In this document: piece by piece, positions 1 through 24,700 of the stretch
Position numbering within the stretch: position 1 is the stretch's first letter
Layout: each line of letters starts with the position of its first letter
From: a virus
IMG/VR virus record: IMGVR_UViG_3300007541_000194
Span: 1-25,342 of that record
Reading direction: 5' to 3' (one strand)
DNA length: 25,342 nt
The notes under the pieces: generated by a model
What the model was told of the DNA's origin: nothing
Seen by the model: the letters and a program-made list of their open reading frames with translations, nothing else
The model's database searches: none
Translations under genes and position numbers: made by a program

Positions 1-231
1 CTCGCACTTGAACTGGCAGCACAGGCCGAGCAGGCCTACTTGGTTGCCGTGGAGTTGGCCGACCAAGCCGATGAGGCCCTTGAGGCCGTAATCGGTGATC
101 TGGGAGATGACCAGAAGAGTGAGGCCTACAGGGTCGCTGAGACGGCTGAGGATGGCGTTGACTGCGAGAGCCTTGATCTCAAGGCAACACGCATTGATGC
201 TTGGGCCACCTATCTGGAGGACGTCAAGTGA
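1..231 (+). CDS. Partial small helical protein, 5' end outside window
   Basis: The reading frame is open from base 1, so the gene starts to the left of the window. A TTG at 40 is the first in-frame start-type codon, but the residues before it (LALELAAQAEQAY) continue the same Ala/Glu/Leu-rich pattern. The visible 76 residues are acidic and rich in Ala, Glu, Asp and Leu in a heptad-like arrangement, suggesting a helical or coiled-coil protein. No family is recognised. The stop TGA overlaps the GTG start of the next gene (GTGA), which implies translational coupling in the early operon. Confidence 0.7.
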   Translation, partial: LALELAAQAEQAYLVAVELADQADEALEAVIGDLGDDQKSEAYRVAETAEDGVDCESLDLKATRIDAWATYLEDVK

Positions 232-527
232 GCACCCACAAGCCGGGACAGGCACTTTGGGACCGTATCCAGACGCTGCGCGACGAGCATGGCGTGGACG
301 TAATCTACCGGACTTCTCGCGAGGGCGATGCGCCGTACGAGGTTGACCTGCTGCAAGCAGGGCTCACCGTATCGCGCCACACCAACGACGACATGGCGTA
401 CGACGCCTATGTTCAGGAGTTCATCCAGAGTCTTGAAAAAGCCTACGCGGGTGGATACTCTTGGGTAGAGCGCCTTGAGATCAAGGTCTCATTCGCTGAG
501 CAGGCACTGGAGGAGGATCAGCAATAG
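228..527 (+). CDS. Hypothetical early phage protein (99 aa)
   Basis: I chose the GTG at 228 because GGAGG lies 7 bases upstream and the codon overlaps the previous stop (GTGA). The upstream ATG at 201 would bury the start deep in the preceding gene. The product is a soluble, acidic 99-aa protein (begins STHKPGQALWDRIQTL, ends EEDQQ) with mixed alpha/beta character and no motif I recognise. The TAG stop at 525-527 is immediately followed by, and partly inside, a hammerhead-like ribozyme. If the ribozyme cuts, this gene's mRNA would end in the stem III hairpin 23 bases past the stop. Confidence 0.75.
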   Translation: MSTHKPGQALWDRIQTLRDEHGVDVIYRTSREGDAPYEVDLLQAGLTVSRHTNDDMAYDAYVQEFIQSLEKAYAGGYSWVERLEIKVSFAEQALEEDQQ

Positions 528-582
528 CCGAAACCGGGCACGGCCCGGTCTGCCGGGGATAGTCTCCCGGCACTGACGAGGC
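527..582 (+). ncRNA. Hammerhead ribozyme, type II, copy 1
   Basis: All conserved hammerhead parts are visible in type II order. Stem II is GCC (527-529) with GGC (580-582). Then come GAAA at 530-533 and stem III CCGGGC/GCCCGG (534-539/543-548, loop ACG), closed by the required A533-U549 pair. The predicted cleavage site is after C550 of the GUC triplet. Stem I is a perfect 7-bp helix (551-557/566-572) with loop GATAGTCT (558-565), and the core CTGACGA occupies 573-579. An outer stem II helix GAGG/CCTC (513-516/587-590) is possible. Cleavage would leave a 2',3'-cyclic phosphate upstream and a 5'-OH downstream, each next to a hairpin. Self-cleavage is inferred from the motif, not shown. Confidence 0.88.
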
Positions 583-608
583 AGACCCTCACGAGAACAG
601 GAGAGAAC

Positions 609-881
609 ATGTTCACGGAGAACACACTGAAGTACCTGCGCGAAGAGGCCGCTGATCCGGTTGAAGCGTTGCAGGAGTTGATTGACACCGGGCAGGCATG
701 GCGCATGCAGGGATCGGTGGGACGAGCGGCCGCGTACGCCATTGAGGCAGGGATCTGCATTCTTGGCGAGTCAGGCCACACCGACTACTGGGGCAATTAC
801 GTGCCGTCCCGGTACGAGGTCAAAGCAGGCACGAAGGGCAGCGTTGAGTACGCAGCCCGCATGCAAGAGATGGAGGTTTAA
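609..881 (+). CDS. Conserved hypothetical phage protein (90 aa)
   Basis: The ATG follows AGGAGAGAAC in the leader just downstream of ribozyme copy 1. The protein has an N-terminal helical part and a C-terminal GHTDYWGNYVPSRYEV segment followed by GTKGS. From memory, small proteins of this type are common in the early regions of actinobacterial phages and have no assigned function; I cannot confirm this by search. It forms a pair with the membrane gene at 883, and the pair is bracketed by the two ribozymes. Confidence 0.85.
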   Translation: MFTENTLKYLREEAADPVEALQELIDTGQAWRMQGSVGRAAAYAIEAGICILGESGHTDYWGNYVPSRYEVKAGTKGSVEYAARMQEMEV

Positions 882-882
882 C

Positions 883-1104
883 GTGAAGGAGTTTATCGCA
901 ACATACCTGCTCGCCACGGTGGCGGCAGCGGTGGCGTACGCCGTGTATGGCCACCTTGGGCTCTCTGTTCTGGTCCTCTTCGGTACGGTCGGTGCGATCG
1001 TTACCGGATGGGTGATCGGCGACGAGATCAAGATGAGGATTGACGAGCGACTGCGCGCTCACTACGCTGAGAAGAGCCAGACCAAGAAGAGCGAAGTCTG
1101 GTAG
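883..1104 (+). CDS. Small two-helix membrane protein (73 aa)
   Basis: The GTG at 883 lies one base after the TAA of the previous gene, with GGAGG 6 bases upstream. The upstream ATG at 682 in this frame would run through the previous gene and is rejected. Residues of about 5-23 and 27-48 form two hydrophobic helices. A charged C-terminal tail rich in Arg, Lys and Glu (RIDERLRAHYAEK) is probably cytoplasmic. The function is unknown; small early membrane proteins of phages often target the host envelope, but that is general knowledge rather than evidence here. The TAG stop (1102-1104) leads directly into ribozyme copy 2. Confidence 0.8.
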   Translation: MKEFIATYLLATVAAAVAYAVYGHLGLSVLVLFGTVGAIVTGWVIGDEIKMRIDERLRAHYAEKSQTKKSEVW

Positions 1105-1158
1105 CCGAAACGCCCTTCGGGGCGTCCTCCGGGGATAGTCTCCCGGGGCTGATGAGGC
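1104..1158 (+). ncRNA. Hammerhead ribozyme, type II, copy 2
   Basis: Same architecture as the copy at 527-582. Stem II is GCC (1104-1106) with GGC (1156-1158), extended by GTCT (1096-1099) with AGAC (1159-1162) across a GGTA bulge. GAAA is at 1107-1110. Stem III is CGCCC/GGGCG (1111-1115/1120-1124) capped by a TTCG tetraloop and closed by A1110-U1125. Predicted cleavage is after C1126 of GUC. Stem I (1127-1133/1142-1148) has one U-G wobble and the identical loop GATAGTCT; the core CTGATGA is at 1149-1155. Stems I and III differ from copy 1 by paired changes that keep pairing, and position N7 of the core, which tolerates change, differs (C or U). Confidence 0.9.
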
Positions 1159-1187
1159 AGACACCTTGAGAACAGGGGAGAACACAC

Positions 1188-1283
1188 ATGGAGTATGAAC
1201 AGGACACAAAGCGCATGAGGCTACTAGCGTTGATTATCTTCGCGGCCTTGATCCTAAGTGGACTAGGGAAGGAGGTGCTCTGA
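1188..1283 (+). CDS. Single-pass membrane micro-protein (31 aa)
   Basis: A short ORF from ATG 1188 to TGA 1281-1283, with AGGGGAG 5-6 bases upstream in the leader that follows ribozyme copy 2. The product has a charged N-terminus (MEYEQDTKR) and one hydrophobic helix (about residues 11-26), then a short charged tail. It overlaps the next gene by one base (TGATG), and its 3' end AAGGAGG supplies that gene's ribosome binding site. It may therefore act as a coupled leader peptide, a small membrane effector, or both. Confidence 0.65.
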   Translation: MEYEQDTKRMRLLALIIFAALILSGLGKEVL

Positions 1284-1567
1284 TGAGCACAAGGAAGCTG
1301 AACGTACCGGCACTGGGGTTTGAGATCGTGGTGATCGGAGCAAGCGACAAGACCAACAAGGCCATCGCTGATGCGCTGGAGAAGAAGGTCGTTGAGGAGG
1401 CAGAAGACAATCCGTGCAAGGAGTGTGGCATGCCAGACCTTGATGGGCTCTGGTACACCGGACTATGCGAGATCTGCCACGATGAACTCGTGTCGCGTAG
1501 CGTGAAGGCTGCCGTGTACGAGATTCAGAACCCCAAGAAGAAGAGCAAGAAGGGTGGTCAGTCATGA
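1283..1567 (+). CDS. Small zinc-ribbon-type protein (94 aa)
   Basis: The ATG overlaps the preceding stop (TGATG) and has AAGGAGG upstream. The C-terminal half holds two CxxC pairs (CKEC and CEIC about 19 residues apart), which fits a single structural zinc ribbon; the second pair is followed by a His. The N-terminus (about residues 1-42) is a beta-then-helix segment. The tail is very basic (PKKKSKKGG), suggesting nucleic-acid contact. No specific family is recognised. It overlaps the next gene by 4 bases (ATGA). Confidence 0.8.
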   Translation: MSTRKLNVPALGFEIVVIGASDKTNKAIADALEKKVVEEAEDNPCKECGMPDLDGLWYTGLCEICHDELVSRSVKAAVYEIQNPKKKSKKGGQS

Positions 1568-2208
1568 GCGAGGTTAAGTGCTTCGGGTGCGAGAGCACCT
1601 TTGACACGGACTCCGGCGACGGTGGCCGCTGGTCTGAACTGCGCAATGCAGAGTATTGCTGGGGCTGCTTTGAGTCGGACATTGAGTCTGCCTCTGTGGT
1701 CACGGTGTACAAGCCCGGCAAGGAGGAGGACCGATACCTTATCGGCTCCAACTGGATCGTTGATGGCGAGTACTACGAGGAGCTCCCTCGTGAGCAGTGG
1801 GCCCGGTTCAGCCGGACCTACACACGCACGGATGCATGGCGCGGGTACTTCGTGACCACCCTTGAGGGGTGGCACGAGGTGGCCGAAGGCGTGAATCTGT
1901 GGGGCGAGGGCTCCAAGATTGACAGCATGGCCGAGAAGATCAAGTACGCGTGGGAGGCAGAACTTCTGCCCTTTGACGTGGCCTTCGTGGTTGACCGCAC
2001 GAGCAACGTGTTTGCTGCGGGCGTATCAATCTTCGTGCCGCAACACCGGGTCAAGGACTTTGAAGATCTTCTTCTCAGCCTTGATCCGTATGGTTGCAGC
2101 AAGTGCGGCATTGCGTACGTCCCGGAGGACTATGTGCCTCCGGTCAAGGTGGGCGATGAACTGATCTGCACAAACTGCGTAGAAGGAGTCGATCCTCATG
2201 CAGAGTAA
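1564..2208 (+). CDS. Hypothetical protein with terminal zinc-binding pairs (214 aa)
   Basis: This is the largest gene of the early block. It has CxxC pairs at both ends: CFGC near residue 6 and CWGC near residue 32, then CSKC and CTNC near the C-terminus, so two zinc knuckles flank a central region of about 140 residues. The centre is acidic and aromatic-rich (for example IVDGEYYEELPREQW) and not recognised. The start ATGA overlaps the previous stop, and the 3' end overlaps the micro-ORF at 2198. A role in binding nucleic acid or a host protein is possible, but there is no catalytic motif to support a firmer call. Confidence 0.8.
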   Translation: MSEVKCFGCESTFDTDSGDGGRWSELRNAEYCWGCFESDIESASVVTVYKPGKEEDRYLIGSNWIVDGEYYEELPREQWARFSRTYTRTDAWRGYFVTTLEGWHEVAEGVNLWGEGSKIDSMAEKIKYAWEAELLPFDVAFVVDRTSNVFAAGVSIFVPQHRVKDFEDLLLSLDPYGCSKCGIAYVPEDYVPPVKVGDELICTNCVEGVDPHAE

Positions 2209-2275
2209 GATCATGGTTGCCCTTATGGCCTACGTGGTGTATCTTTTAGTGGCAATGGCAAGTAGTTTGCAGTAA
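2198..2275 (+). CDS. Membrane micro-peptide (25 aa)
   Basis: The ATG at 2198 has AAGGAG 8-9 bases upstream and overlaps the end of the previous gene out of frame. The 25-residue product (MQSKIMVALMAYVVYLLVAM...) is essentially one hydrophobic helix with two positively charged residues near the front. It fills the gap before the gene at 2286. It resembles the micro-protein at 1188-1283 in size and type. There is no homology evidence; the call rests on the ribosome binding site, position and composition. Confidence 0.5.
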   Translation: MQSKIMVALMAYVVYLLVAMASSLQ

Positions 2276-2285
2276 GGAGGAGAAC

Positions 2286-2549
2286 ATGAACTGCATTGAT
2301 AAGGGACTAGAGCACAATCCACACTGGGAGGACGGCATCTGCATTAGGTGCGGGGTCGACTGCCACTTTGAGCCGGTGGTATTCACCGGTTCAGCGCACG
2401 GCTGCCACTACCAGATCCGGGACACCGGGATGGGGCAGCCAATGCGTTATGAAGTCGTTAATCCGGAGACTCGTGAGTCGGCCGTTGGCTACGTCTCGTC
2501 ATATGGCGACGCGTTCAAGGCCATCGACCGCTTCGCGAGGATCCAGTAG
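2286..2549 (+). CDS. Small cysteine-rich phage protein (87 aa)
   Basis: The ATG follows AAGGAGGAGAAC, a near-ideal ribosome binding site. Residues C3, C19, C22 and C26 together with several His (H10, H13, H27) could build a zinc knuckle in the first 30 residues. The rest is a small alpha/beta domain with the segment MRYEVVNPETRES. No family is recognised. Its TAG stop overlaps the GTG start of the next gene by one base. Confidence 0.8.
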   Translation: MNCIDKGLEHNPHWEDGICIRCGVDCHFEPVVFTGSAHGCHYQIRDTGMGQPMRYEVVNPETRESAVGYVSSYGDAFKAIDRFARIQ

Positions 2550-2854
2550 TGAGGACGCAGGGGGATTCGCCCCCGGCAATATACCCAAACAGGACCTGCG
2601 ACCTGAGGTCGGAGCTTTACGCATTGTGGAGCACCACGAGCAAGGAGCTCCGTGATAAGGGGCACTTCGTGCCGTACCTCACGCGCAACCCGGAGATGGA
2701 GACCGACCTAGTCGGCGACTGTCTCGCATGTGAGGGCCTCGTTGCAATTGACGTGCAGGATGGCCGGGCCTATGGCTCGATCCTCCGCATTGCGTGCGGC
2801 GACCCCTATATCCCGGCCGAGCGGGGAGGCGACGATGAAGATCTTGAAGTCTGA
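2549..2854 (+). CDS. Hypothetical early phage protein (101 aa)
   Basis: The GTG start shares its first G with the upstream TAG stop; GAGG lies about 9 bases upstream. The sequence has a helical middle (RSELYALWSTTSKELRDKG), then a CLAC pair and an acidic C-terminus (GGDDEDLEV). A segment PEMETDLVGDCLACEG suggests a small metal or structural site, but there are too few ligands to assign one. Function unknown. It overlaps the next gene by 20 bases. Confidence 0.7.
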   Translation: MRTQGDSPPAIYPNRTCDLRSELYALWSTTSKELRDKGHFVPYLTRNPEMETDLVGDCLACEGLVAIDVQDGRAYGSILRIACGDPYIPAERGGDDEDLEV

Positions 2855-3083
2855 ACTGGAGGCTCTACGCAGGCACGAGGCCAACGCGATTGCCTACGAG
2901 CAGACCGTCAAGGAGATCATCAAGACGATCCGCTCAGTCGAGGGTGACATCCATGGCGATGACCCGGAGAAGGCAGCGTGGGCCGAGGGATGGGTCGCGT
3001 GTGCTGTTGCGATGGCGCAGGGGTTGAAGCAAGCGAAAACAGGCCCGGTCAGGGCCTTGTCGGATGAGGTCTTTCCGTTCTAG
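2835..3083 (+). CDS. Hypothetical helical protein (82 aa), last gene of early block
   Basis: ATG 2835 has GGGAGG 6 bases upstream. The in-frame ATG at 2730 would bury 105 bases in the previous gene, so the shorter form is preferred. The protein is mostly helical: an N-terminal coiled-coil-like segment (LKSELEALRRHEANAIAYEQ), an acidic turn, then a helix rich in Ala and Trp. Function unknown. It ends 33 bases before a strong terminator, so it closes the rightward operon. Confidence 0.75.
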   Translation: MKILKSELEALRRHEANAIAYEQTVKEIIKTIRSVEGDIHGDDPEKAAWAEGWVACAVAMAQGLKQAKTGPVRALSDEVFPF

Positions 3084-3115
3084 TATTCACCCACAGGGTC
3101 GTTCTCCCCTGTACG

Positions 3116-3148
3116 AAGGCCCCAGGTCGTATGACCTGGGGCCTTTTT
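3116..3148 (+). terminator. Rho-independent terminator of the rightward early operon
   Basis: A 13-bp hairpin, arms 3116-3128 and 3133-3145 with loop GTAT, is followed by TTTTT. The weaker hairpin ACAGGG/CCCTGT (3093-3098/3107-3112) lies just before it. Convergent genes meet here: the leftward operon's last stop codon (3147-3149) lies in the T tract. Read leftward, the same hairpin is followed by only two T residues, so it is a good terminator rightward and a doubtful one leftward. Confidence 0.9.
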
Positions 3149-3413
3149 ATTTGTCATCCTCGATGAGGTTGACTGCGTCTCCCATGGTGAGCTCCTTGCG
3201 GTTCACCGTCCTCCTCAGATACTCCGGAGGGTGGATTCCATGGTCCCTGTAATAGGCCCATAGCCCCTTGCCTCCCGGAGCGAGGTAGCCTAAACGCTCT
3301 GCGTCTCCTCGGAAGAAGAGGTCTGCGTCGTCGCAATCTCGAAGGCCTCGGCCAGGACCTCGACCATCTCCTCGCTCAGTGCTTGCTGCATGCTGATGAA
3401 GATCGTGCCGCAC
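3147..3413 (-). CDS. Hypothetical protein, 3' part clear, start unresolved
   Basis: The frame ending TAA at 3147-3149 reads as protein from about 3300 leftward (LGYLAPGGKGLWAYYRDHG, then PPEYLRRTV) and has G/C in most third codon positions. The competing frame, ending at 3154, does not. However, no ATG, GTG or TTG lies near the end of the preceding gene. The nearest upstream in-frame start is a GTG at 3413 with no ribosome binding site, and an ATG lies at 3509. Alternatives are a frameshift joining it to the zinc-ribbon gene at 3290-3514, or a sequence error. It would be the last gene of the replication operon. The start given is provisional. Confidence 0.4.
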   Translation of the reverse strand: MRHDLHQHAASTERGDGRGPGRGLRDCDDADLFFRGDAERLGYLAPGGKGLWAYYRDHGIHPPEYLRRTVNRKELTMGDAVNLIEDDK

Positions 3414-3514
3414 TTCCAGTTTAGGCACTCGTGCCTCCGGTATACTACGCCGTCCACCGTCACCGGAGTCCGGTGTCTCCGGTAATCTAGGCCGCCGCAC
3501 GCGGGGCACTTCAT
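3290..3514 (-). CDS. Small zinc-ribbon protein (NrdR-like ribbon, 74 aa)
   Basis: I start at ATG 3514, which overlaps the stop of the membrane micro-gene at 3511 (ATGA). The longer form from 3604 would overlap that gene entirely in another frame. The protein opens MKCPACGG, has a basic stretch (RRHRTPV), and then a CLNWKC pair, giving a four-cysteine ribbon over residues 3-35. This is like the N-terminal zinc ribbon of NrdR or of the phage Ogr/Delta activators, but neither full family is present. The C-terminal half is an acidic helix with a Ser/Thr/Glu tail. A DNA-binding regulatory role is possible but unproven. Confidence 0.7.
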   Translation of the reverse strand: MKCPACGGLDYRRHRTPVTVDGVVYRRHECLNWKCGTIFISMQQALSEEMVEVLAEAFEIATTQTSSSEETQSV

Positions 3515-3630
3515 TTCATCAACGCCATCGCCACCGCAAACAGGACCAACGCGGTCACCTGTCCGCAGAAGAAGATGACGAGGTCGTGGTTTCTCCGGGC
3601 CCATGAGGAAACCGGGGAGCTAGTCTTCAC
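3511..3630 (-). CDS. Single-pass membrane micro-protein (39 aa)
   Basis: The GTG start at 3630 overlaps the end of the previous gene, and the TGA stop overlaps the ATG of the zinc-ribbon gene (ATGA). The ORF therefore fills an otherwise empty gap with coupling at both ends. The product has a basic N-terminus (SSWARRNHD) and one strong hydrophobic helix (about residues 17-38) ending in Lys, so N-in topology is expected. Function unknown. No clear Shine-Dalgarno sequence was seen, so expression would depend on coupling. Confidence 0.6.
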   Translation of the reverse strand: MKTSSPVSSWARRNHDLVIFFCGQVTALVLFAVAMALMK

Positions 3631-3859
3631 TGGGTTGATAGGCACTTTCCCCTCCATTCTTCAGGTATGCCAGCTTGACCTCGGCCACCGCTTCGGCAGT
3701 CGCAATCCGCTCAGCGTATTCAGCTTCGACCATCTTCTGCGCGACCCATCGGTCAGTCTTGGCAGTGACTAGTCGCAGAAACTCCTGCGCTGCTTCTTGC
3801 CTGATCTTCCCGGCATCGACTGCAGACTGAATGTACTCTGCTCCAAGCTTGTTAATCAT
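3620..3859 (-). CDS. Hypothetical helical protein (79 aa)
   Basis: The start ATG at 3859 overlaps the upstream stop (ATGA), the usual arrangement in this operon. A GTG at 3889 would extend the protein by 10 residues into the previous gene without a better ribosome binding site. The sequence is almost all helix (INKLGAEYIQSAVDAGKI, then KMVEAEYAERIATAEAVAEV), rich in Ala and Glu, and could be a coiled coil. No family is recognised. Confidence 0.7.
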   Translation of the reverse strand: MINKLGAEYIQSAVDAGKIRQEAAQEFLRLVTAKTDRWVAQKMVEAEYAERIATAEAVAEVKLAYLKNGGESAYQPSED

Positions 3860-4047
3860 TTCGCAGCCTGGCAGGTTCGGTGCTGCCACACCATGAGGTC
3901 ACGGCGAGGGCCATACGATATCGACTGCACCCGCCACGCCTGATTCAATCCATCGATCTCCTTCGCACACAGCGAGCAGATCGCGCCCTTCCACCTTGTC
4001 TGTAATCTTGGCCCTCCAGAGCCCTTCTGTGTCTTTACGGCTGCCAT
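3856..4047 (-). CDS. Small CxxC protein (63 aa)
   Basis: It starts with ATG at 4047, overlapping the primase stop (TAATG). It has a basic N-terminus (VKTQKGSGGPRLQTR) followed by CSLC, a spacer of about 30 residues, and a closing HRTC pair, consistent with a single CxxC...HxxC zinc site over residues 24-59. Such tiny zinc proteins near replication genes are common in phages and usually unassigned. Function unknown; DNA or RNA binding is plausible from the charge. Confidence 0.7.
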   Translation of the reverse strand: MAAVKTQKGSGGPRLQTRWKGAICSLCAKEIDGLNQAWRVQSISYGPRRDLMVWQHRTCQAAK

Positions 4048-4901
4048 TATGCCGCCTCTCTCGCTGCTCTCAGGGTCACCGCAAGCCAGCGGTCCCCGCT
4101 CTCAGCGTACTTCTCCCCGATGCCATTCGGGTACGCCGCAAAGATCTCGCGGATAGCTTCCTCGCTCCATCCGTAGCGGATCATCCAAAGGCACGCCTTG
4201 AAGGCGGCCTCAGAGCGTGCCCCTTTAGGCGCGCCCTCCTTGACAATTTGCTGCAGCCAATCCGGAAGCTTGACGAACGAGGCCACGTCCGTGACCACCG
4301 CCCTTGGCTTTTTGACCACAACCTCCTCGACCGGGAAGTCTCCAGGCCTGTATCGCCGGGCATCATCGAACCTGAGCAGCCGTACCGGAGCAGGCGTGCC
4401 CTTGTAGTTCGTGGTCCCCGGTACTCGCAGCACCCTTGAAGCGTCAGACACTGCGTCGCCACCGACCGCTCGTGCGATGACCTTCATCGATGACTGGGCC
4501 TGTGCCATCTCGACCGGCTCGCTCAGGAACCAGTACGCATGGAACCCATGCCCGGAGTCAACGATTGCAGAGGCCGGGATCTCAAACATGTTCAGGCTCG
4601 TAGCTGCCTCAGTCTTCGAAGCGAAGTTCTTGGCATCAACGTCTGCCCAGATCACGTTCGTGCTAGGCGCAGCATCTGCTGCCGTGCCCCTTTGCCGGAC
4701 CCTTGGAACCACGCCGTAGTACACATCCCACCCCTCGACCATGAAGGTCAGGCAGTCAGCTTCAGCACGGACAATCCCGAGGCCATCGCGCAAAGGGTAG
4801 AACCTCTGCGTGATTACCTTGCGGTCTCCGTCCGGCCGCATCAGGCGCAGCTCTCCATACATCTCGGACCTCCCCCAGATCGACTCCAAAAACGAGCTCA
4901 C
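4047..4901 (-). CDS. Archaeo-eukaryotic-type primase (RepB-like primase-polymerase)
   Basis: This 284-aa protein probably lays down primers for phage DNA replication. Signature elements are the metal-binding WADVDAK (D87, D89), SGHGFHAYW (H118, H121) and the basic DASRVLRVPGTTNYK segment. This D-x-D, H, R/K order is typical of archaeo-eukaryotic primase superfamily enzymes related to RepB primase. A C-terminal helical part (about 210-284; RSEAAFKACLWMIRYGWSEE) resembles the small domain that follows the catalytic core in this group. There is no helicase domain, which fits the separate DnaB gene upstream. The start is GTG 4901, overlapping the previous stop (GTGA). Confidence 0.85.
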   Translation of the reverse strand: MSSFLESIWGRSEMYGELRLMRPDGDRKVITQRFYPLRDGLGIVRAEADCLTFMVEGWDVYYGVVPRVRQRGTAADAAPSTNVIWADVDAKNFASKTEAATSLNMFEIPASAIVDSGHGFHAYWFLSEPVEMAQAQSSMKVIARAVGGDAVSDASRVLRVPGTTNYKGTPAPVRLLRFDDARRYRPGDFPVEEVVVKKPRAVVTDVASFVKLPDWLQQIVKEGAPKGARSEAAFKACLWMIRYGWSEEAIREIFAAYPNGIGEKYAESGDRWLAVTLRAAREAA

Positions 4902-6411: not shown

Positions 6412-6888
6412 CTACTCAATGACCTCAATCGATACCTTCTGGAGGCCGAGGCTGAGGTCAACCCCGAGCTCCTTGAACAGAGCCGGCGCAAGATCCACGA
6501 TGCGGTTCTTGGCCGGGCACTCACACCAGTCTACCACAAGGGCGACCACACTGCGACCGGTCTTGAGGTTGGTGATCCTGATTGGGTATGGGTTCATTCC
6601 GTATCGGAAGTTCTTTACCGCTCGCAGGGCTGGCCCTGCTGCCGCGTAGTACTTCACCCCGGCCCTGCTGTACCAAGTGCTCTGTCCGCTACGCTTGGCG
6701 TCGAACCATGATGCAACCCCAACGATCACGTTGGATGGCTTTGCCTCCGGCTCCGGCTCCGGGCTCGGGGATGGTGTTACCTGTACAGACACCGGGGTCA
6801 TCAAGCCTTCGGACTTGCCGATGCCGTACCCGCTGAAGAACGATGCGATCACACACATCGATGTCACGAATGCGATATAGATCCTCAT
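6412..6888 (-). CDS. Exported RlpA-like double-psi beta-barrel protein
   Basis: A 158-aa protein. Residues 4-22 form a signal or anchor helix after MR, residues of about 36-52 are a Pro/Glu-rich linker (PSPSPEPEPEAKPS), and residues 55-158 look like an RlpA-type barrel. The hallmarks are GVASWFDA, IRITNLKTGRSVV, VVDWCEC, and the closing RIVDLAPALFKELG followed by GLQKVSIEVI. RlpA barrels act on peptidoglycan, some as lytic transglycosylases through an Asp in the VxDxG-type position, here VVDW. The protein would act outside the membrane at the cell wall. It is odd inside a replication operon, directly after DnaB (ATGA overlap). Whether it is catalytic is unknown. Confidence 0.75.
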   Translation of the reverse strand: MRIYIAFVTSMCVIASFFSGYGIGKSEGLMTPVSVQVTPSPSPEPEPEAKPSNVIVGVASWFDAKRSGQSTWYSRAGVKYYAAAGPALRAVKNFRYGMNPYPIRITNLKTGRSVVALVVDWCECPAKNRIVDLAPALFKELGVDLSLGLQKVSIEVIE

Positions 6889-8150
6889 GAAACTGCCTCC
6901 TTAACTGCATTGTACGGAGGGAATGTCATGGTGGTAAAGTCGAACTCGACCTTCACCAACCCGACAGGACCCTGCCGATTCTTGAGAACCTCGATATCCA
7001 TTTCCCTGGTACCGAGCTCCCTCTTCAACCCGATGACGATGTCAGCGTCCTGCTCGATGGCCCCGGACTCCCGGAGGTCGTGCAGTTTCGGGTGTTGATC
7101 GTCTCGAAGTTCAACCGCACGGTTGAGCTGAGACAGCACGAGCACAGGGCAGTCGAACTCTCGGCCAAGGGCCTTGACGTTTCGGCTAATCCTTGTGACG
7201 CGCTGGACCTCAGAGTCCGTGCCGTCGTCCTTCAAGATCTGCATGTAGTCGATGATGATGCCACCGATGCCGCCAGCCAAGCTGCGTAGTTTGGCAGCCG
7301 CAGCGCGCACCGAACCGGTGGTTGCGTGAGGGTCGTCGAGGTACCAGATCCTCATGGTCTCTCTCTTTGCAAGAACCTCGATGGCAACCTTCTGCTCGTC
7401 CCCATTGAGCTGCCCACGAATCACCTTCGACGCATCGAGGTGGCCAAGCCGTGCAACAGCACGGTCCAAAAGCTGAGGCACGGTCATCTCGATCGAGACA
7501 AAGAGGATCGGATGCTGGCTTTGCTCAGCCCAGTTGTCGGCCACGTTATCGGCCAGCGCACTCTTGCCGACAGATGGACGAGCGGCCACAACGATCATCT
7601 CCCCGCCATGAGCAGGGGTAAGCAGCCTATCCAGCCCTCCGATATTGTAGGAGAGCCCATTGATGCCGGACATCCTTGCGACCTGGACGTCCTTGTACAT
7701 CTCGACTGCACTGTGTGGGGACAGAAGTGATCCGTCCTCCGCGTTCGACATGATCGAGGTGGTGGCCTGTGACAGGGCAGTCAGAAGGTCCTGCCTGGAC
7801 TCCTCCCGGTGCGCCTTGTCGATCAACTTCTCGAGCGCAACGATGAGGCGACGACGGAATCCGTCTCGCCGCACGATCTCTGCGTACTCTTCGGCTGGTG
7901 CCCGGTGGCCTTGAGTCATCTGGGTCAGGAGGGCGTTGAGGCCGACGCCATCCTGACCCATGGAGGCAATGTCTACCGACTTGCGCTCCTGCGATAAACG
8001 TACCATCGCGCTATATGCGCGGCGATACTCTGGCACATAGAAGTCCTCTGCCGTCAGCTTGTCGCTGACGAGCGGTATCTGAGCCGGGTCAAGGAGTAGC
8101 CGGGTCAGGAGGCCAGCCTCGGCCCCCTGGTTAAACGGCAACTGCTCCAT
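6885..8150 (-). CDS. dnaB: Replicative DNA helicase, DnaB family
   Basis: A 421-aa hexameric helicase that would unwind DNA at the phage replication fork. The N-terminal helical domain (LPFNQGAEAGLLTRLLLD, then DFYVPEYRRAYSAM) is as in DnaB. The RecA-like core has Walker A ARPSVGKSAL (K196), VSIEM, Walker B GIIIDYMQIL, the H3-type VLVLSQLNRAVE and the H4-type LRESGAIEQDADIVI. The length is slightly shorter than cellular DnaB (about 470). No intein is present. The ATG at 8150 overlaps the annealing-protein stop (TGATG). Confidence 0.97.
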   Translation of the reverse strand: MEQLPFNQGAEAGLLTRLLLDPAQIPLVSDKLTAEDFYVPEYRRAYSAMVRLSQERKSVDIASMGQDGVGLNALLTQMTQGHRAPAEEYAEIVRRDGFRRRLIVALEKLIDKAHREESRQDLLTALSQATTSIMSNAEDGSLLSPHSAVEMYKDVQVARMSGINGLSYNIGGLDRLLTPAHGGEMIVVAARPSVGKSALADNVADNWAEQSQHPILFVSIEMTVPQLLDRAVARLGHLDASKVIRGQLNGDEQKVAIEVLAKRETMRIWYLDDPHATTGSVRAAAAKLRSLAGGIGGIIIDYMQILKDDGTDSEVQRVTRISRNVKALGREFDCPVLVLSQLNRAVELRDDQHPKLHDLRESGAIEQDADIVIGLKRELGTREMDIEVLKNRQGPVGLVKVEFDFTTMTFPPYNAVKEAVS

Positions 8151-10525: not shown

Positions 10526-10696
10526 TTATTCCCTCCAACGCATTGGTCCCGTGACCAGCCAAGAGATCGTCAGTAAAACGAAAAGAGTTCCCATTACGGT
10601 CTGAGTCTGGCCTTCGGGGAGAACTACTACCGCGAACAAAAGTCCGAGAATTGTCCATGCTCCTCCGATGAGATCGTTTACGATGTTCTTAATCAA
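10526..10696 (-). CDS. Small two-helix membrane protein, lysis cassette (56 aa)
   Basis: The ORF runs from TTG 10696 to TAA 10526-10528 and exactly fills the gap between two genes. The TTG overlaps the upstream stop (TTGA), and the TAA abuts the next ATG; a GGGG-rich site lies upstream. Two hydrophobic helices (about residues 11-28, [16 protein letters not shown], and 35-50, [14 protein letters not shown]) are joined by an EGQTQT turn, and the tail MRWRE is charged. It is probably a second holin, an antiholin or another lysis accessory. Confidence 0.75.
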
Positions 10697-11844
10697 GACT
10701 TGTTCCCCTTTCTACTAGAAGAGCTGGATGAAGATGACGGTCCCCCTACTGGACCCCCTCCTCCTGTGCCACCGGCCCTCGCCATTGCTGCAGATACCGC
10801 AGCGCTTGCGACTTGGCTAATGACCACCGCAACCGCGACAGGTTGCGCCTCCTCTTTCTCCTCGGGGTCTAAGTCCTTTCCGATTTCTCCAATGTTTAAT
10901 ATCGCTTCAAATGATGCGCCGAATACTTCGGCAACTTGTTCGGCAGCCTCTCCAAATGCTTCCGCAATTTCCTCAACCGCTTCCTCTACACCTAGCAGTT
11001 CGTCAGTTGGCTCAGGAGAAGGCTCAACGCTAGGCTCAGGCTCAGGGCTAGGCTCGTCAGTAGGATCAGGACTCGGCTCAGGTTCCTCTGAAGGCTCTGG
11101 CTCGGGCGTCTCTTCGGGCTCGGGAGTCGGCTCTGGTTCTTCACTTGGCTCCGGCTCTGGCTCTACCGAGGGCTCAGGCTCTGGAGTCGGTTCAGGAGTT
11201 GGATCAGGAGTTGGCTCTGGCGTAGGCTCCGGAGTTGGCTCAGGCGTCGGCGAAGGTTCCGGCGTCGGCGTCGGTTCGGGCGTAGGCTCTGGCGTTGGGC
11301 TCGGCTCTGGAGATGGATCAACAGATGGCTCCGGCGTTGGCGTCGGTGTAGGATCCGGCGTCGGGCTTGGTGTTGGCGCTGGGCCTACTACCCAGGTTGT
11401 GTTTGTGATCTGAAGAAAGCCAGCCCCGCAGCACGAGTCCGTGCTCATAATCCGGAATCCGAACAGGCCGCCAGCCGCGATGTAGACGATCTGGCTGCCG
11501 CTCTGTTGCAGCGGGTTGTAGCCAGCCTGATCCCAGATCGCGAGGTCAGTCCAGCTCTCATCGAGCAGCATCTGTGCGCGATCGTAGAAGGCACCATCAG
11601 TCGTCCAGTACGCCCAGTCAAAGGTGACCGTCTCGCCAATGGACGAATCAGTCGTCAAGCCGGTCACCGTGTTCTGCCACGGGTACTCAGGACCAGCATT
11701 ATTGCTGCCCTCAATCAGGATTGATCCATCGGTCAGCGTGATTGTGCCGTTGGAGTCAACCTGCTGGTCCCACTGGTCTGTGCTGTCTAGGGCATACGCC
11801 TGAGCTGGCAGTGCCAGCAGGAGGAGGATGATGATATAGCGCAC
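10693..11844 (-). CDS. Secreted Pro/Glu-repeat surface-type protein
   Basis: A 383-aa protein from GTG 11844 (GGAGG 5 bases upstream). The signal peptide [18 protein letters not shown] is probably cut after ALA/AYA. Residues of about 20-152 are a beta-sandwich-like domain ([23 protein letters not shown]) resembling exoprotein domains seen before sorting anchors in bacteria. Residues 155-280 are [11 protein letters not shown] repeats. Residues 283-345 are helical ([17 protein letters not shown]), and there is a hydrophobic stretch ([19 protein letters not shown]), then a Gly- and Ser-rich tail ([14 protein letters not shown]). It probably sits across or outside the envelope. It lies between nucleotide genes and lysis genes; adhesion, superinfection exclusion and spanin-like roles are all possible. 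Confidence 0.75.
11005..11383 (-). repeat. Degenerate hexamer/dodecamer repeats coding for PEPTPEP
   Basis: About 380 bases of short, imperfect tandem units (read leftward, mostly Pro-Glu-Pro-Thr/Ser codons with varying third bases). The third-base variation shows selection for the peptide rather than recent DNA expansion. Local copy-number change by slippage is still likely. Confidence 0.85.
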
Positions 11845-18740: not shown

Positions 18741-21700
18741 CTAATCTCCGACGAAGGGGAGCACATCAAATGTCCCCTCTCGTCCTGCTTGGGACAGCAG
18801 CTCGAGCGTGTAGCTCGGGCCGAGTACCATCATTCTTCCTGCCATGCTGATCGGGTCCTGGGCGGCATACTCAGGGAAAACCCCAAGTGCGCCACCAAGA
18901 TACCTTGGACCTCGTGACAGGGTTACCCCGATATCCCCCGGGGTAATAGGGAGCAACATTTGTGCAGTACGCCACAGTGACGGATTGTTCTCGAACATCG
19001 CAGCGTACTCACTGTTGTTTTCAAATTGGTCCATGTGGATCTGGCGTAGTCGCTCCAGTCGAACCACATTCTTTAGCGTGCCTTCTCCGGCAGCATCAGT
19101 CAGGACATTGTACAGCCACCTTGTGGCCTTAAGCTGGTAGCTAAATGGCCAGTACAGCCAGTAGCTGTTAAGAATTCTTTCAAGGTTAGATCGGCTGGTA
19201 TTGCCTCGCAGCACGCTAATGTGTGATGCATACGAGGACTCGTTTAGCTCGTACAAGCGCTGGAGGAGTGGAGACATCTCTCGCTTATTATCCTTCAGGA
19301 TGTCATCAGCCATTCCCTCCATGCCCGCCCTGTGGCCCTTCTGATCCCAGACGTATAGCTCCTCATCAAGGATCTGAGCCAACGGCTTACCCTGCTGTTG
19401 CTTCTGAAGTGCAAGAAGCCTTCGGCGAAGTTGGTCAGCCCTTTCAAGCATTTGCTCTGGCGTGACGTCTCCAAGGCGTCGAATGATCGGGTCGCGCTGG
19501 CCAATAAAGTTTATGGCCTGCTCGACTGCCTCAAACTCTCCGGTCTTTGGGTTTACACCAAACTCACGAAAGAGCTGAGCCCCATTGCGCTCGCGCGCAA
19601 CCTCAAGTGCCCTAGTTCCGTACCCAGTTAGTCGTCGCATATCCGAGAAACCAGCGTCAAGTCCGGCAAGTGCGGAGGTTGGGATTCCATCAATCTCTGC
19701 TCCCATCACAGGAAGTCCTCGCTGACGATGCGTTGCATATGCTGCATCTTCCAAGGCGGTGTTAGCCCCGCGCACGCGCGTGGCTTGTAGGCCATACTTC
19801 GTGCCGTTGATAACGTCAGCCTCAAACTTGTTCATTGCCCACCATCGTGGGTCAAGCATGAATCGGAAGAACGGGTATGCAAATCGGCTTACGGCACGTG
19901 CGCCCTGGGAAACCCTGGTTGGCTGATACGACTCGTATACATCCTTAAGCGCCCTGGTAACAAATCCCTTTGCTCCAGGAACACCAGCCTGAGTATCTAG
20001 GTATCGGTAGTAGCGAGATTGCGCGCGGTCAACAAGCTGCCAGAAGTTTCCCTCTCCAACCTTCTTAACCACATCTGCCTTGAATGCAAGCTTTGCCTTC
20101 GAGTTAATGACCGACGGCCAAACTGCCCCAACTGTCTTGTAGACAGGAAGCCCCATAAATACGGCCTCGTCAACGGACTCCTTGAGGAGGGCAAGGAATC
20201 CGTTGACTTCGGCCACCGTAGCTCCCTTTGACAGGAGCTCGCGGTACAAGAATTGCCTTGCGGTGTTGGAGTTCTTACCTGCGCCAACTGGCTTTGTAAG
20301 CCAGTCAATAAACCGCAACGGGCCCGATACAATTGGATTGTCAAGAATCATTGAGTCATAAAGCCCAGTCCTCGTCTGTGTGACTCGTGCGATATATCCC
20401 TGGCCAGGAGCCGGAGGGATTGCAAGGCCTGGAGCCTCAGAAAGCGTGTACTTGCCCTTGCTGATAACGTCAGCGCCAAGACCGGCAAGCTGGAGCTGGA
20501 GGTCTTGGTCAACTCCCTTCATGCTTGGATGCCATCGAGGCATTGGAACAAGCTTCTCAACCTCGGCGTCCTTAGCTACATTTGCAAGAGCCTCATCCTT
20601 CTGGCCGGCACTTCCTTTAAGGTCGTCTTCCATCCTGGACAGGATATTAAGTAGGCTTTCCTGATCCTTGTTTCGTGGAGAGATAACTGCATCATCGCCG
20701 CGCCGGAACAAGCTTTCAAACGCAGCTTCAATTTCCGGGTTCAGCCTATTGCCCTTGAGGTCGGAGAACTTATAGACGCCGCCACTAACGCGATCATATA
20801 GCCCAAGGAGCCACTGACGGAACTTTTCAAATACTGGCACAAGGGTCTTGATCGGTGCCTTACCCTTTCTGAGCCACACGTTAAACGCGTCGGCAAACTT
20901 CTCTTCCTGCGCGCGCGTCCACACGTACCGACCAGAATCGTCAAGCTTGGCCCCGGCCCACTTAGATGCAGCCTCCAGGGCCTCACCCTTAAGGAGGGTG
21001 CCACGGAATACGTGGGCAAACTCATGGGTTGCAGTAGTCCAGCTCGAACCCTCAAACCCCTTAATAAGTGCGCGGCCATTCTCGAGGAACTCGGTCGACC
21101 CAATGACCTTCTCACCATCCTTCTTAAAGTATTTGGAGAGAAGGTTTGGGTTGAACGCCTGTACGGCATCCGTTGGCCTTGTGAATCCTGCAGCCCGCAA
21201 GGTATCGAGGCCGTTCTGGACGTCATTGAAGTCTGCTCGTGGAAGCTTGTTTGCGTTCTTGTAGAGCAGCGAATGTGGTTCGACCTTGCCACGGAAGGCG
21301 TCCCATCGGAACCATTGATATGCACCGCGACCAACGTTTGCAAGTCCCGGAATAGCCGCTGCCTCTGCGGCCTGGAGGGCGCCGAGGTACTCGTCCATGA
21401 CCTGCACTGGACTTTCTCCGTAAACGGGGATGTCCTTGCGAGGTGTTCGGATGCTTTCCGGAATCTCCGAGTATGCACGCTCAAGTTCGTCAGACATCTT
21501 CGCCCTAACGCCAAGAGATCGGAATGGTGCGTTAACCGTTTCTGCCTCGCCCCGGAGCGCCTTAACCATGGTGTCGGCGTATGCCTTGCCTCCTGGGACA
21601 GCATTAAGCCGTTCGACAAGTGCAGCGAGGTCGCCCTTTTGCTCTGCTGCCTTGAACAGGTCAAGAGACATTTGCAGGTCAATGGTGCCGCGATTCAAAG

Positions 21701-24700
21701 TGGTTGGCTGACCAAGCTCAACAGCAAAGTTTCCGACTTTTACCCCAACCCCCTTGATCATCAGAAGTCGGTCAGCTAGATTCTCTGCAGTCTCTCCTGC
21801 GCGAATAGTAAACCAGCTTGGGTTGGAATCAGCAAACTCAGAGATCATGGCAATGCGCTGGTACGCCTGCGTCTGGTTAGTTGAACCGATACGAATGTCT
21901 GGGTTTGGGAAGTATCCATCAGGCCCAACAAGTTTTCGAAGGTTTTCCTGACGGAACTTTGGGTCTGCCCCAGGCGCGGTTGGATACTTGGAGATTTCGG
22001 ACTCTGGAAGATACATGCGGTAGTGCCGCATAATCTCTCGCCCCATGTCCTTATCGGCAACGCCTCGATCTCGCGCCTTACGAACGAACGAGGCCATCTG
22101 CCCAACATCGTCAAGGTCCCTTGCCCTAATGACCATGTACTGAGCTTCATTAATTGGCAACGCTGTTTTGTTTGCGCTTGTAAGAGCAAATGAGATCCGG
22201 TTCACAAGATCGACTGGGTCAGAGAAGTCTACGGTTTTTCCGGCCCAAAGCTTGCTGTAAAGCTGGAATCGCATTTGATCTGGCAGCATTGACGGGACAA
22301 TTCCCTGCGAGCGAATAACAACCTCGTCTGCCAACGAATAGGGGGCAGGGTTTGCAAGGAACTCCATCCCTCCCGGAAGTGCAATGTCTGTGGCACCAGG
22401 GTTGAGCGAGCTTCCGGGGATGACCTCAACTGGATGATACCCCGATAGGCTTTCGTCCTTTAGCTTTTTCCCAAGAGCCACCATGTCGTCGGTCGGCCTA
22501 AATTCTGTCGCTGCCTGGATGGCGCGCTCAAGACCTTCAGGCGTCTTTGCCCGGGCAAACTTATCAGCAAGGACTGCAGACTCTTTGGCGAATAGGGCAT
22601 CTGGGTTTACGTCACCACCACGCATGACGCCGTAGAGCACGCTGTCGTATACATCCTTGACTGTGCGGCCAGTGACCGCAGCTTCGGACCGCATCGCTGC
22701 GTCCCACAACTCGGCAAGCGCATTTGCTTCTTCGTCGCTCGTGTTGAAGGCTTGCTTGACCCCCTTAGAAAATTCACTGACTCGCGAAGCTTGCTGCTCG
22801 GCCATCTCCTCTGCCGCGCGGATACGCGCGGATTCAGTGGTTCTCTGAAGCCTAGAAATGTCAGACCCAAGAGCCCCAAGAACACGCTGCTTTTCGGCTG
22901 GAGTTACAACCCTGGACAGTTCATCGAGAACTTCGTCTTGAAGCGCCTGGTATTCCGGCGTACCCGGTGTCTCCTTAGAAAGACTTTTTGTTACCGACGA
23001 GAAGTTGGACGGGGAGAAGGGACGATCAAGGTCACCAGCGGTTCCTCGGAAGACTCTGTCTTCGGCTCCAGCGAGGCCTGCAGTTCCTGTTCCGTCGGCC
23101 ACCATTCCGGCAGGACGAAGTTCGGCAGAGTCCCCAAGGGCTCTGAAGAATCTTGCGTCTCCTGTGTTAATTCCGTTGGTTGCTGCTTGTTCAATTCCAC
23201 TGACTGTTACCTCCGGCTTCCCTAAATATGATACGGCCTCACCCTTGAGGTCGTTAACAATAAGCTCAGCATACACGCCCTCGACCCTCGTTGTCGGGGA
23301 CGAACCACCAGTGACCTCCGAGATTGCCTTTGCAAGGACAAGTGTCCTCCCCCGGGCCTTAAGCCCGCTCAGGTCGGCAGTCTTTGCCATGATCTGGATG
23401 GTACCTGCTTCGCGATCGATAGTTGACCCGATAGGCCCGTAGGAATCCGCAATAGCGTCGACAATTTTTTGGGATTCTTCGCCGCTCATTGCGCGTCCAA
23501 TAGAGAAGGTCATCCTGTGGTAGTTTGGCTTGAAATTTGCAGATCTTCGTAATTCGTCTGAAAGCACTAAGAGGACGGCATCTTGCTGATCGTCAAAGAC
23601 CTTGCTGCCGCCTCTTAACGCAATGACAGCAGCCTCTCGAGGACCCTTCAAAACCTTGGAAAGGTCTCCCGCGTCGGCTGGGTTCTTGGCCCCCCTGGAA
23701 GGTAGGGCAATATACATCGACGGCTCTGCGCTCTTTTGCCAGACCCCTATAACGGGCTTGGAGGTTACTACGGTGTACCCGTGGTCAGTAAGATGCTTGC
23801 CAATGTTCTGTTCGTACACGGCAACTGTTTCGTTTGCCCGAACGGAAAGAGCCTGCTGTACGCTCAAATCTCCTTCAAGTCCAACGCGAGCTTTAATATT
23901 ATCTCGGAATCTTGAGACGAAGATTTCTGTGACATCTGGAGACCAGTCAAGATCCGGACTTCCGTCAGCTTTGACAGGTCCTCGGGGAACTACAAGGTCA
24001 TCTACAGGGGCAGCAGCTTCTCGTGCGCCCCATGGCCCGGTCAGCTCATTGAGGGTTGGGGCTTCAGCAAGTTCTTTCTGGATAATGGAGTCAAGGTTGT
24101 CAAAAGTTTCGTCAGCATCACGGAGTAGGTACTCTCGCCATACGTTTGCATTCTGGGCAGATTCAGGGCTAAGGACTGCGGAGTTGTCCTGGATAATTCT
24201 TTGCAGGTTTGATGCGCTAATCTTTCCATTAACAGCCGCAGCAGAAAGCTCCGCTCGTAAACCGAGCCAATGCTCCTTGGCAAATACGCCATCAAAGTTT
24301 CGAAGAACAACCTTTCCGTAATTGTCTCCGGTTGCCCAGACACGCTCGGCAAGAGGAAGGAACCTTACCCAGTTGTCAATGATTCCAGATCCAGAAACCC
24401 TAGCCTGTACGCCGCCCGTAAGCTCCTCTACCCCTCGAAGGTTTGCAACCCATGCGTCAACTGCTTCGTCAACTGCGGCCGGGGGAATTTGCCCTTCGTC
24501 AATAAGTCGTGCAAGGTGATCATCAACATTTTTTGAAAGCATCTCACCGTGCATTGCATAGGATGGCATGCTCCCCGGAGTGACCCTGTAGGCGTCACCA
24601 AGGGATGGGGCAATACCATTAACCTTGTGGACTTCAGATCCGTGGAAAGCAACGTACCGGAGAATCTGCGCCTTAAATGAGTTCCATGGGTAGTCTCCGC

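Follow-up and report, generated by a model that had tools for sequence, protein, structure and literature searches.

Serial type II hammerhead ribozymes as candidate punctuation of a phage operon mRNA, with the upstream stop codon built into stem II

The window, i.e. the whole stretch of DNA that was analysed (25,342 bases), is an entire IMG/VR virus record and possibly a fragment of its phage; near-identical DNA was not found among known phages. Its left part carries a block of small genes on the + strand. An upstream gene at 201-527 (108 aa from TTG in the ORF list, or 99 aa if the start is the GTG at 228), whose product matches no Pfam or PHROG family at E<=0.01, is followed by a 90-aa gene at 609-881, which falls into phrog_3908 (E 4e-8, function unknown) and matches DUF7417 slightly below that family's cut-off, and by a 73-aa gene with a GTG start at 883-1104, which is membrane-like by eye and has no family match. 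Two hammerhead motifs on the + strand flank the latter pair: copy 1 (527-586) and copy 2 (1104-1163). Further downstream the block closes with a terminator-like hairpin of 14 pairs (3115-3146, + strand), a class that is weak evidence when taken alone, because four such sites lie in 1-4000 against 2.2 expected in shuffles. It is plausible that the ribozyme gaps sit in an early operon: the + strand block ends in this strong hairpin, and in a longer relative it starts near a TTGACA-like element (by eye).

That copy 1 is a type II hammerhead had been claimed in a first-pass annotation from the sequence alone, which proposed a covariance-model search of the window as a check. Rfam cmscan with the Hammerhead_II model (RF02276) bears the claim out, with a match at 526-590 (58.8 bits, gathering cut-off 37, E 5.4e-10) and a second one at 1103-1166 on the + strand (61.4 bits, E 1.1e-10), both above the cut-off, and these E-values exclude a chance match. 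Base-by-base reading found every base of the earlier description of copy 1 in its place: the invariant core consists of CUGACGA (573-579), GAAA (530-533), the A533-U549 pair and the GUC triplet (548-550), with the predicted cut between C550 and U551. Stem I (hairpin 551-572, the would-be 5'-OH end of the downstream mRNA) has seven pairs, U551-G557 with C566-A572, and a possible extra pair G558-U565; stem III (hairpin 534-548, the would-be 3' end of the upstream mRNA) has six pairs, C534-C539 with G543-G548 around the loop 540-542, in addition to A533-U549. C528 and C529 lie 5' of GAAA and G580-G581-C582 lie 3' of CUGACGA, and stem II comprises the three pairs G527-C582, C528-G581 and C529-G580. 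As the annotation had it, the element begins within the TAG of the upstream gene (525-527) and precedes the next ribosome binding site, the AGGAG at 599-603 in front of gene 609-881; G527 of this stop codon is stem II base 11.3 and pairs with C582. Absent from the earlier description is a pseudoknot between the loop I strand GUCU (562-565) and the 3' tail AGAC (583-586), with counterparts in relatives, and because its second strand is 583-586, the element extends to 586.

The claimed topology, with stems I and III closed by loops and stem II open, is the minimum-energy fold of the bare 527-586. Both bare 60-mers, 527-586 and 1104-1163, fold into the exact hammerhead with a 3-bp stem II. Copy 2 starts in the TAG at 1102-1104, has a UUCG-capped stem III and a predicted cut between C1126 and C1127. 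One of 200 shuffles folds as stably as copy 1 and 13 of 200 as stably as copy 2, so that the stability of copy 2 alone is unexceptional. When flanks are included (515-610 and 1092-1192) the predicted minimum keeps stem III, and stem I wholly in copy 1 and mostly in copy 2, but stem II is absent from both, which counts against the role as mRNA punctuation proposed below, in a program that cannot model the pseudoknot. Likewise the cut-site segment of copy 1, GGUCUGCC, is complementary to its tail, GGCAGACC, and a misfold is possible there, which also speaks against that role. We considered the 8-nt complement GGUCUGCC / GGCAGACC as a switch and rejected it by eye; copy 2 does not have it.

A scan allowing one core change found only copies 1 and 2 in the window, both on the + strand, and Rfam detected no third hammerhead at E<=1. 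No RNA family other than Hammerhead_II exceeded its gathering cut-off on either strand of the window in the Rfam cmscan, where the sole extra match at E<=1 was a sub-threshold suhB-like terminator; a tRNA search of the window was negative. Outside the small-gene block, the - strand encodes a RepB-type primase (4047-4901, Pfam RepB_primase, E 2.8e-9), and the same phage has a DnaB-like helicase at 6885-8150. The protein encoded at 10693-11844 on the - strand, which has no Pfam match, shows a long P-E-P-T/S repeat and, by eye, an N-terminus that resembles a signal sequence, and a protein of 2173 aa (18741-25262, - strand), without a Pfam family at E<=0.01, occupies the right quarter of the record.

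Judged by its relatives, the window contains only the truncated end of a longer hammerhead array. Contig 3300025646_000152 (L123, 36.5 kb; window coordinate = L123 minus 1423) shares 100% protein identity with the window across the seven genes compared and extends further to the left, where it brings the array to six intact type II hammerheads in series, with first bases at 432, 739, 1044, 1333, 1950 and 2527. Six other phages carry such copies: five in L125, two in L133, four in L021, five in L224, five in L233 and four in L291. These seven phages form a group of 31 copies, 30 of them distinct, of which 25 (24 distinct) are non-leader copies. L123, L125 and L133 were found by protein homology (in the comparison among relatives one query, gC, was in a wrong frame), L021 by a core pattern without TAG, and L224, L233 and L291, among the matches listed, by a core pattern that demanded TAG. 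Rfam undercounts such arrays, because only four of the six copies in L123 are found at the cut-off and five at E<=0.001. A longer array is present in record G008 (L023), with 10 Hammerhead_II matches at E<=0.001.

The placement of the copies is regular: all 31 lie on the coding strand of their operon, and the two copies of the window, the six of L123 and the five of L125 flank single genes or short blocks. Over the initial 2.6 kb of L123 each intergenic gap beyond an overlap or a base or two contains a ribozyme; past this region the genes overlap or almost touch. Vice versa, the window genes need no hammerhead, because it is absent from 19 loci that have one or few of them in common (L126-L129, L134-L148). 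In six of the seven phages the first gene is preceded by a leader-like copy that lacks a stop codon and has A, not G, at 11.3; L133 has no leader copy.

A cut in the leader ribozyme would free a GC-rich leader RNA of about 170 nt, situated between that ribozyme and the TTGACA-like element (by eye; L123:1-435, L125:300-683), in a region where L123 51-747 aligns with L125 at 84%; this may be a separate small RNA. In two array copies (L125:1894 and L291:1980) the cleavage triplet is GUA, not GUC; cutting is expected with GUA too, and these copies may be slower variants.

For a broader sample we used a wider set of at least 120 loci from a core pattern that leaves the stop and the stem II positions free, keeping copies with at least 4 pairs in stem I, 3 in stem III and 2 in stem II and dropping identical repeats; L021 is counted both here and in the seven-phage group. 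Among the matches listed, this gave 141 copies in 94 of 120 loci and none in 26, with 0 copies in one shuffled version of these loci (1.17 Mb); 141 copies in 1.17 Mb is not a rate, because the loci were chosen by the core pattern.

Conservation concerns the core, the stems and, to a lesser extent, the pseudoknot. Over the 30 distinct group copies, a standard pair is formed in at least 28 at each counted position of stems I and III, most positions having several pair types; the weight of this compensation lies in the variety of pair types, because the finder itself demands stems. When one core change was allowed and the stems were demanded, the seven phages yielded 28 intact cores and none changed (12 and 0 in L123, L125 and L133, found by protein homology; 16 and 0 in the four core-pattern phages), with a stricter stem rule that omits three of the 31 copies. 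In 124 loci (L003-L122 plus four stretches of cultured phages), the 106 copies that match the pattern being excluded, 40 cores are intact and five changed among the matches listed. Three of the five have CCGA in place of CUGA, taken to be the U4C change, whose lower activity in vitro is stated in the main text of Perreault et al. (2011, PMC3088659). The catalytic core thus appears to be under selection, being intact in homology-found and in pattern-found phages.

A pseudoknot run of at least four complementary bases is present in 25 of the 31 group copies, and the runs differ (GUCU, CGCC, UCACC, GCCC, GCCCC). Its lack in the other six counts against the punctuation model, as do the minima predicted with flanks, in which, the pseudoknot being ignored, stem II is missing in 28 of 30 copies, stem I wholly in 10 and stem III in two. 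In the wider set, among the matches listed, 45% of the 141 copies have the pseudoknot, compared with a mean of 28% and a maximum of 36% after the tails had been exchanged; stem III is often capped by a very stable tetraloop, with a central UNCG or GNRA in 75 of the 112 even-length hairpins of the 141. Unlike these usual tetraloops, a longer common core of stem III, GCAUAGGCAACCCUUCAGC or one close to it, recurs in L125:1015, L133:4909, L021:1649 and the leader copies of L224, L233 and L291. Such GCAUAGGCAACCCUUCAGC-type stem III hairpins are possibly a protein site or a mobile half-ribozyme.

Taken together, the Rfam matches, the fold of the bare element and the compensatory stems in relatives support the identification of the gap RNAs of the window as type II hammerheads, and from sequence we infer that both copies are catalytically active.

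In the seven phages, 23 of the 25 non-leader copies start in TAG, the G of which is stem II base 11.3. Since the longest-ORF rule sometimes picks a wrong frame, the stop codon counts of the group were retaken from the TAG itself; the stop positions of the wider set and of Alvy and Tefunt given below come from that rule and share its error. The fusion is found in 14 of 14 non-leader copies of L123, L125, L133 and L021, which were found without demanding TAG, and in nine of 11 in L224, L233 and L291, which were partly selected by the TAG pattern; the two exceptions, GCG (L224:4733) and TAA+G (L233:5973), both retain G at 11.3. The pair 11.3/10.3 is G-C in 24 of 24 distinct non-leader copies, and A-A or A-C in the six leader copies. 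The conclusions on the TAG and on the core stand, because the subsets free of pattern choice (14 of 14 and 12 against 0, respectively) agree. TAG-fused copies were also found in bacterial contigs, including Streptomyces genomes, in a search that demanded TAG. By title and abstract start, we found no report of a stop-codon fusion of hammerheads among the papers listed from the open-access literature, which omits most subscription papers.

In the wider set, among the matches listed, 131 of the 141 copies lie within 60 nt after a same-strand stop of a frame of at least 40 codons (the remaining 10 have no qualifying upstream stop), the stop being at -5 to -10 from GAAA in 105 and at -5 or -6 in 54. 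Where it is at -5, its third base can pair with 10.3 in 15 of 15 copies, one of them by G-U. Where it is at -6, the third base is 11.4, and among the matches listed TAG faces C10.4 in 20 of 22 copies, against 0 of 17 for the remaining stops (Fisher 3e-9); U lies opposite TAA in six of 13 and opposite TGA in none of four. Shared ancestry inflates this covariation, because the signal weakens under strict dereplication: among the matches listed it amounts to 12 of 14 vs 0 of 14 at 70% (p 6e-6), 7 of 8 vs 0 of 8 at 65% (p 0.001) and three remaining copies at 60% (p 0.33). TAG is the stop in 34 of 54 copies that overlap it and in five of 77 that do not, with a baseline of 198 TAG among 914 long ORFs of the wider-set loci, again among the matches listed. 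Of 119 listed copies with a stop and a following start, 86 overlap the stop or begin no more than 3 nt from it, where 43 are expected, and with at least 15 nt of free room such placement occurs in 37 of 61 against nine expected, the expectation coming from a uniform model, which is crude.

Our preferred reading, which we consider probable, is that these self-cleaving type II hammerheads act in cis as punctuation in a polycistronic phage mRNA. Its computed basis is the structure, conservation, position, stop-codon pairing and serial arrangement, and from these we infer cutting in the cell, stabilisation of the products and gating by ribosomes. Because relatives carry up to six copies in a row, the phage probably cuts one long message into messages of one or two genes. 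Each copy would cut the operon RNA during transcription, just past the upstream stop codon. Hammerhead cleavage leaves a 2',3'-cyclic phosphate and a 5'-OH end: the upstream message would end 23 nt after the stop codon in stem III, with the cyclic phosphate, and the downstream message would start at its first base with the stem I hairpin and a 5'-OH, the ribosome binding site close behind. Both new ends would carry a hairpin, because a type II cut falls between stem III and stem I. Each resulting piece of the operon RNA would hold a single gene or two closely coupled genes; in the window, the predicted cuts at 550/551 and 1126/1127 would free a 576-nt message (551-1126, + strand) with the genes 609-881 and 883-1104. 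RNase E-type decay that depends on a 5'-monophosphate is hindered by a 5'-OH and by terminal hairpins, and 3' exonucleases are hindered by 3' hairpins. The end hairpins may hence slow both kinds of decay, and the units may be expressed independently of their neighbours. In addition, a ribosome on the UAG would cover stem II and GAAA and delay the cut until its departure: since the UAG supplies a stem II base, a terminating ribosome should hold the ribozyme open.

Several rival explanations, partly compatible with the punctuation model, have to be weighed against it. The hammerhead could be a regulated switch, cutting in response to a ligand or to whether a ribosome sits on the UAG, and toggling the downstream gene instead of only trimming the message. 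The UAG does lie within stem II, in 23 of the 25 non-leader copies of the group and in all 14 from phages found without demanding TAG, and the wider set, among the matches listed, links TAG with G at 11.4 to C10.4 (20 of 22 vs 0 of 17 for other stops). However, the downstream ribosome binding site lies outside both window ribozymes, so that no obvious exposing or hiding results, the saving of space also accounts for the overlap, and a requirement for a pairing base would by itself account for the TAG bias. We therefore regard a switch as unlikely.

The genes between the ribozymes vary among related phages while the ribozymes remain alike. In a blastn comparison of L123 and L021, four of the six aligned stretches match ribozyme region with ribozyme region, and the other two are a 36-base ribozyme tail with a gene start, and one common gene. 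Two genes of L123 recur in other neighbourhoods: that of 77 aa in L291 (36% identity) and that of 82 aa in L233 (57%). The two hairpins of a ribozyme are likewise found in changing combinations: one 29-nt stem III is common to two copies with different stem I, one 17-nt stem III is paired with three different stem I hairpins, and one 21-nt stem I is common to two copies with different stem III. This reshuffling of half-ribozymes, together with the alignments, fits recombination at the ribozymes, as far as the few events can suggest. We rejected the idea that ribozyme halves travel with their genes: L123 and L125 agree in the stem I that precedes the 90-aa gene, but L133 has a different one.

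Both the ribozyme-to-ribozyme alignments (four of six) and the reshuffled halves would also be expected if the elements were primarily joints at the DNA level, i.e. repeats where gene cassettes recombine, with the ribozyme as a hitchhiker or its cutting as secondary. We consider this improbable, given that recombination requires neither an intact core nor compensatory stems nor the placement of 31 of 31 copies on the coding strand; moreover, catalytically dead copies are not as common in the arrays as intact ones. The punctuation model can be extended to a broader picture, which we put forward only tentatively: the operon may be a string of exchangeable cassettes with a hammerhead on the stop codon at nearly every boundary, where the terminating ribosome delays the cut and each cassette receives protected ends. 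If this is true, any inserted gene would be translated and terminated, and its message released and protected, with no effect on the neighbouring genes, and it would be explained why the type II topology, with a hairpin on both ends, is favoured in phage operons.

Comparable arrays occur in cultured phages. Searching annotated phages with the DNA of copy 2 gave 34 records, 32 of them Streptomyces phages, when weak matches to E 1 are counted. The fetched stretches of Alvy, BartholomewSD and Tefunt contain nine, nine and eight Hammerhead_II matches, respectively, and resemble the window group in having serial type II hammerheads within a block of small genes; the fetched annotation of these three phages includes no hammerhead feature, and we found no hammerhead arrays of Streptomyces phages by title and abstract start among the papers listed from the open-access literature (most subscription papers lie outside it). 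In contrast to the window group, the stop is mostly unfused in Alvy and Tefunt: in their 12 scanned copies it lies at -6 to -9 in three, at -11 in one and beyond -20 in seven, and one has none. UAG fusion is therefore not universal. A single Hammerhead_II, fused to TAG, is present in Roseobacter phage CRP-7, and Dulem virus 39 has two hammerheads. In Alvy two hammerheads stand nearly back to back (L303:1484-1617; 1484-1550 and 1553-1617) and are predicted to free a very short RNA. Annotated genes overlap hammerheads on the same strand in Alvy (gene 84, L303:2902-2976) and Tefunt (gp79, L307:1552-1782), and for this reason these gene calls or their starts are doubtful.

Other systems resemble the proposed one in part. 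The glmS ribozyme and phage operons processed by RNases likewise have mRNA cut near genes; unlike the hammerheads, glmS requires a metabolite and sets decay, and RNase sites require a host protein. The RAGATH RNAs, whose name refers to their position near genes associated with twister and hammerhead ribozymes, also keep ribozyme company with certain phage genes, but are different RNAs; one RAGATH-27 match is present in Dulem virus 39. A link to the block of phage infection by aminoglycosides (PMC9239200), a paper that cites aminoglycoside binding to hammerheads, was dropped; Alderaan, the phage of its infection RNA-seq, has no type II hammerhead.

The closest precedent is the work of Perreault et al. 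(2011, PMC3088659), whose main text describes type II hammerheads with a pseudoknot and in clusters flanking prophage genes or gene blocks. They are like those of the window in their core, open stem II, closed stems I and III, pseudoknot, phage genes and clustering (PMC3088659, main text). In the same text, processing into operon- or gene-length mRNAs was proposed and the functions were called unproven; cutting in vitro was observed for tandem hammerheads from three bacteria, and for the triple of Agrobacterium tumefaciens also in E. coli; and in a halovirus, a hammerhead whose core is variant has its cut no more than 3 nt from the 5' end of a transcript. Four of 18 consensus hammerheads assayed there gave no cleavage, which weighs against the punctuation model. 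The A. tumefaciens triple around ardA is likewise serial and cuts polycistronic RNA in vitro and in E. coli, according to that text (PMC3088659), but it involves other genes, three copies and another host. The window group differs in that 23 of 25 non-leader copies are UAG-fused and up to six stand in series; the term 'stop codon' is absent from the main text of the paper (PMC3088659). Our comparison would add three points: the copies stand in a serial array, the UAG forms part of stem II, and the genes that separate the copies are exchangeable.

One further use of the array is conceivable: the unit between two cuts might refold through halves that share stem II (GGC/GCC) and be closed into a circular mRNA, by the reverse reaction or by the RtcB of the host. 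Hammerhead chemistry leaves ends of the right kind, and the G-C at 11.3/10.3 in 24 of 24 distinct non-leader copies makes halves of different copies compatible. Yet circles have no known use here, the leader copies differ at 11.3, and spliced or circular products were undetected by Perreault et al., according to their main text (PMC3088659), and we think circularisation quite unlikely. That the copies are inactive fossils or chance matches is very improbable: some consensus hammerheads are inactive according to the main text of PMC3088659, but E-values near 1e-10, 0 matches in shuffled sequence and intact cores across whole arrays speak against it.

By title and abstract, we found no answer after 2011 in the open-access literature to the function of bacterial and phage hammerheads. 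Arrays between genes (up to six copies here, 8-9 in cultured Streptomyces phages) make this function directly testable, both a division of the operon into messages of gene length and a timing of the cuts by ribosomes. In the window group they fill precisely the space that separates the stop codon from the ribosome binding site, and the stop is part of the fold. Such compact stop-plus-cut insulators may be of use for synthetic operons.
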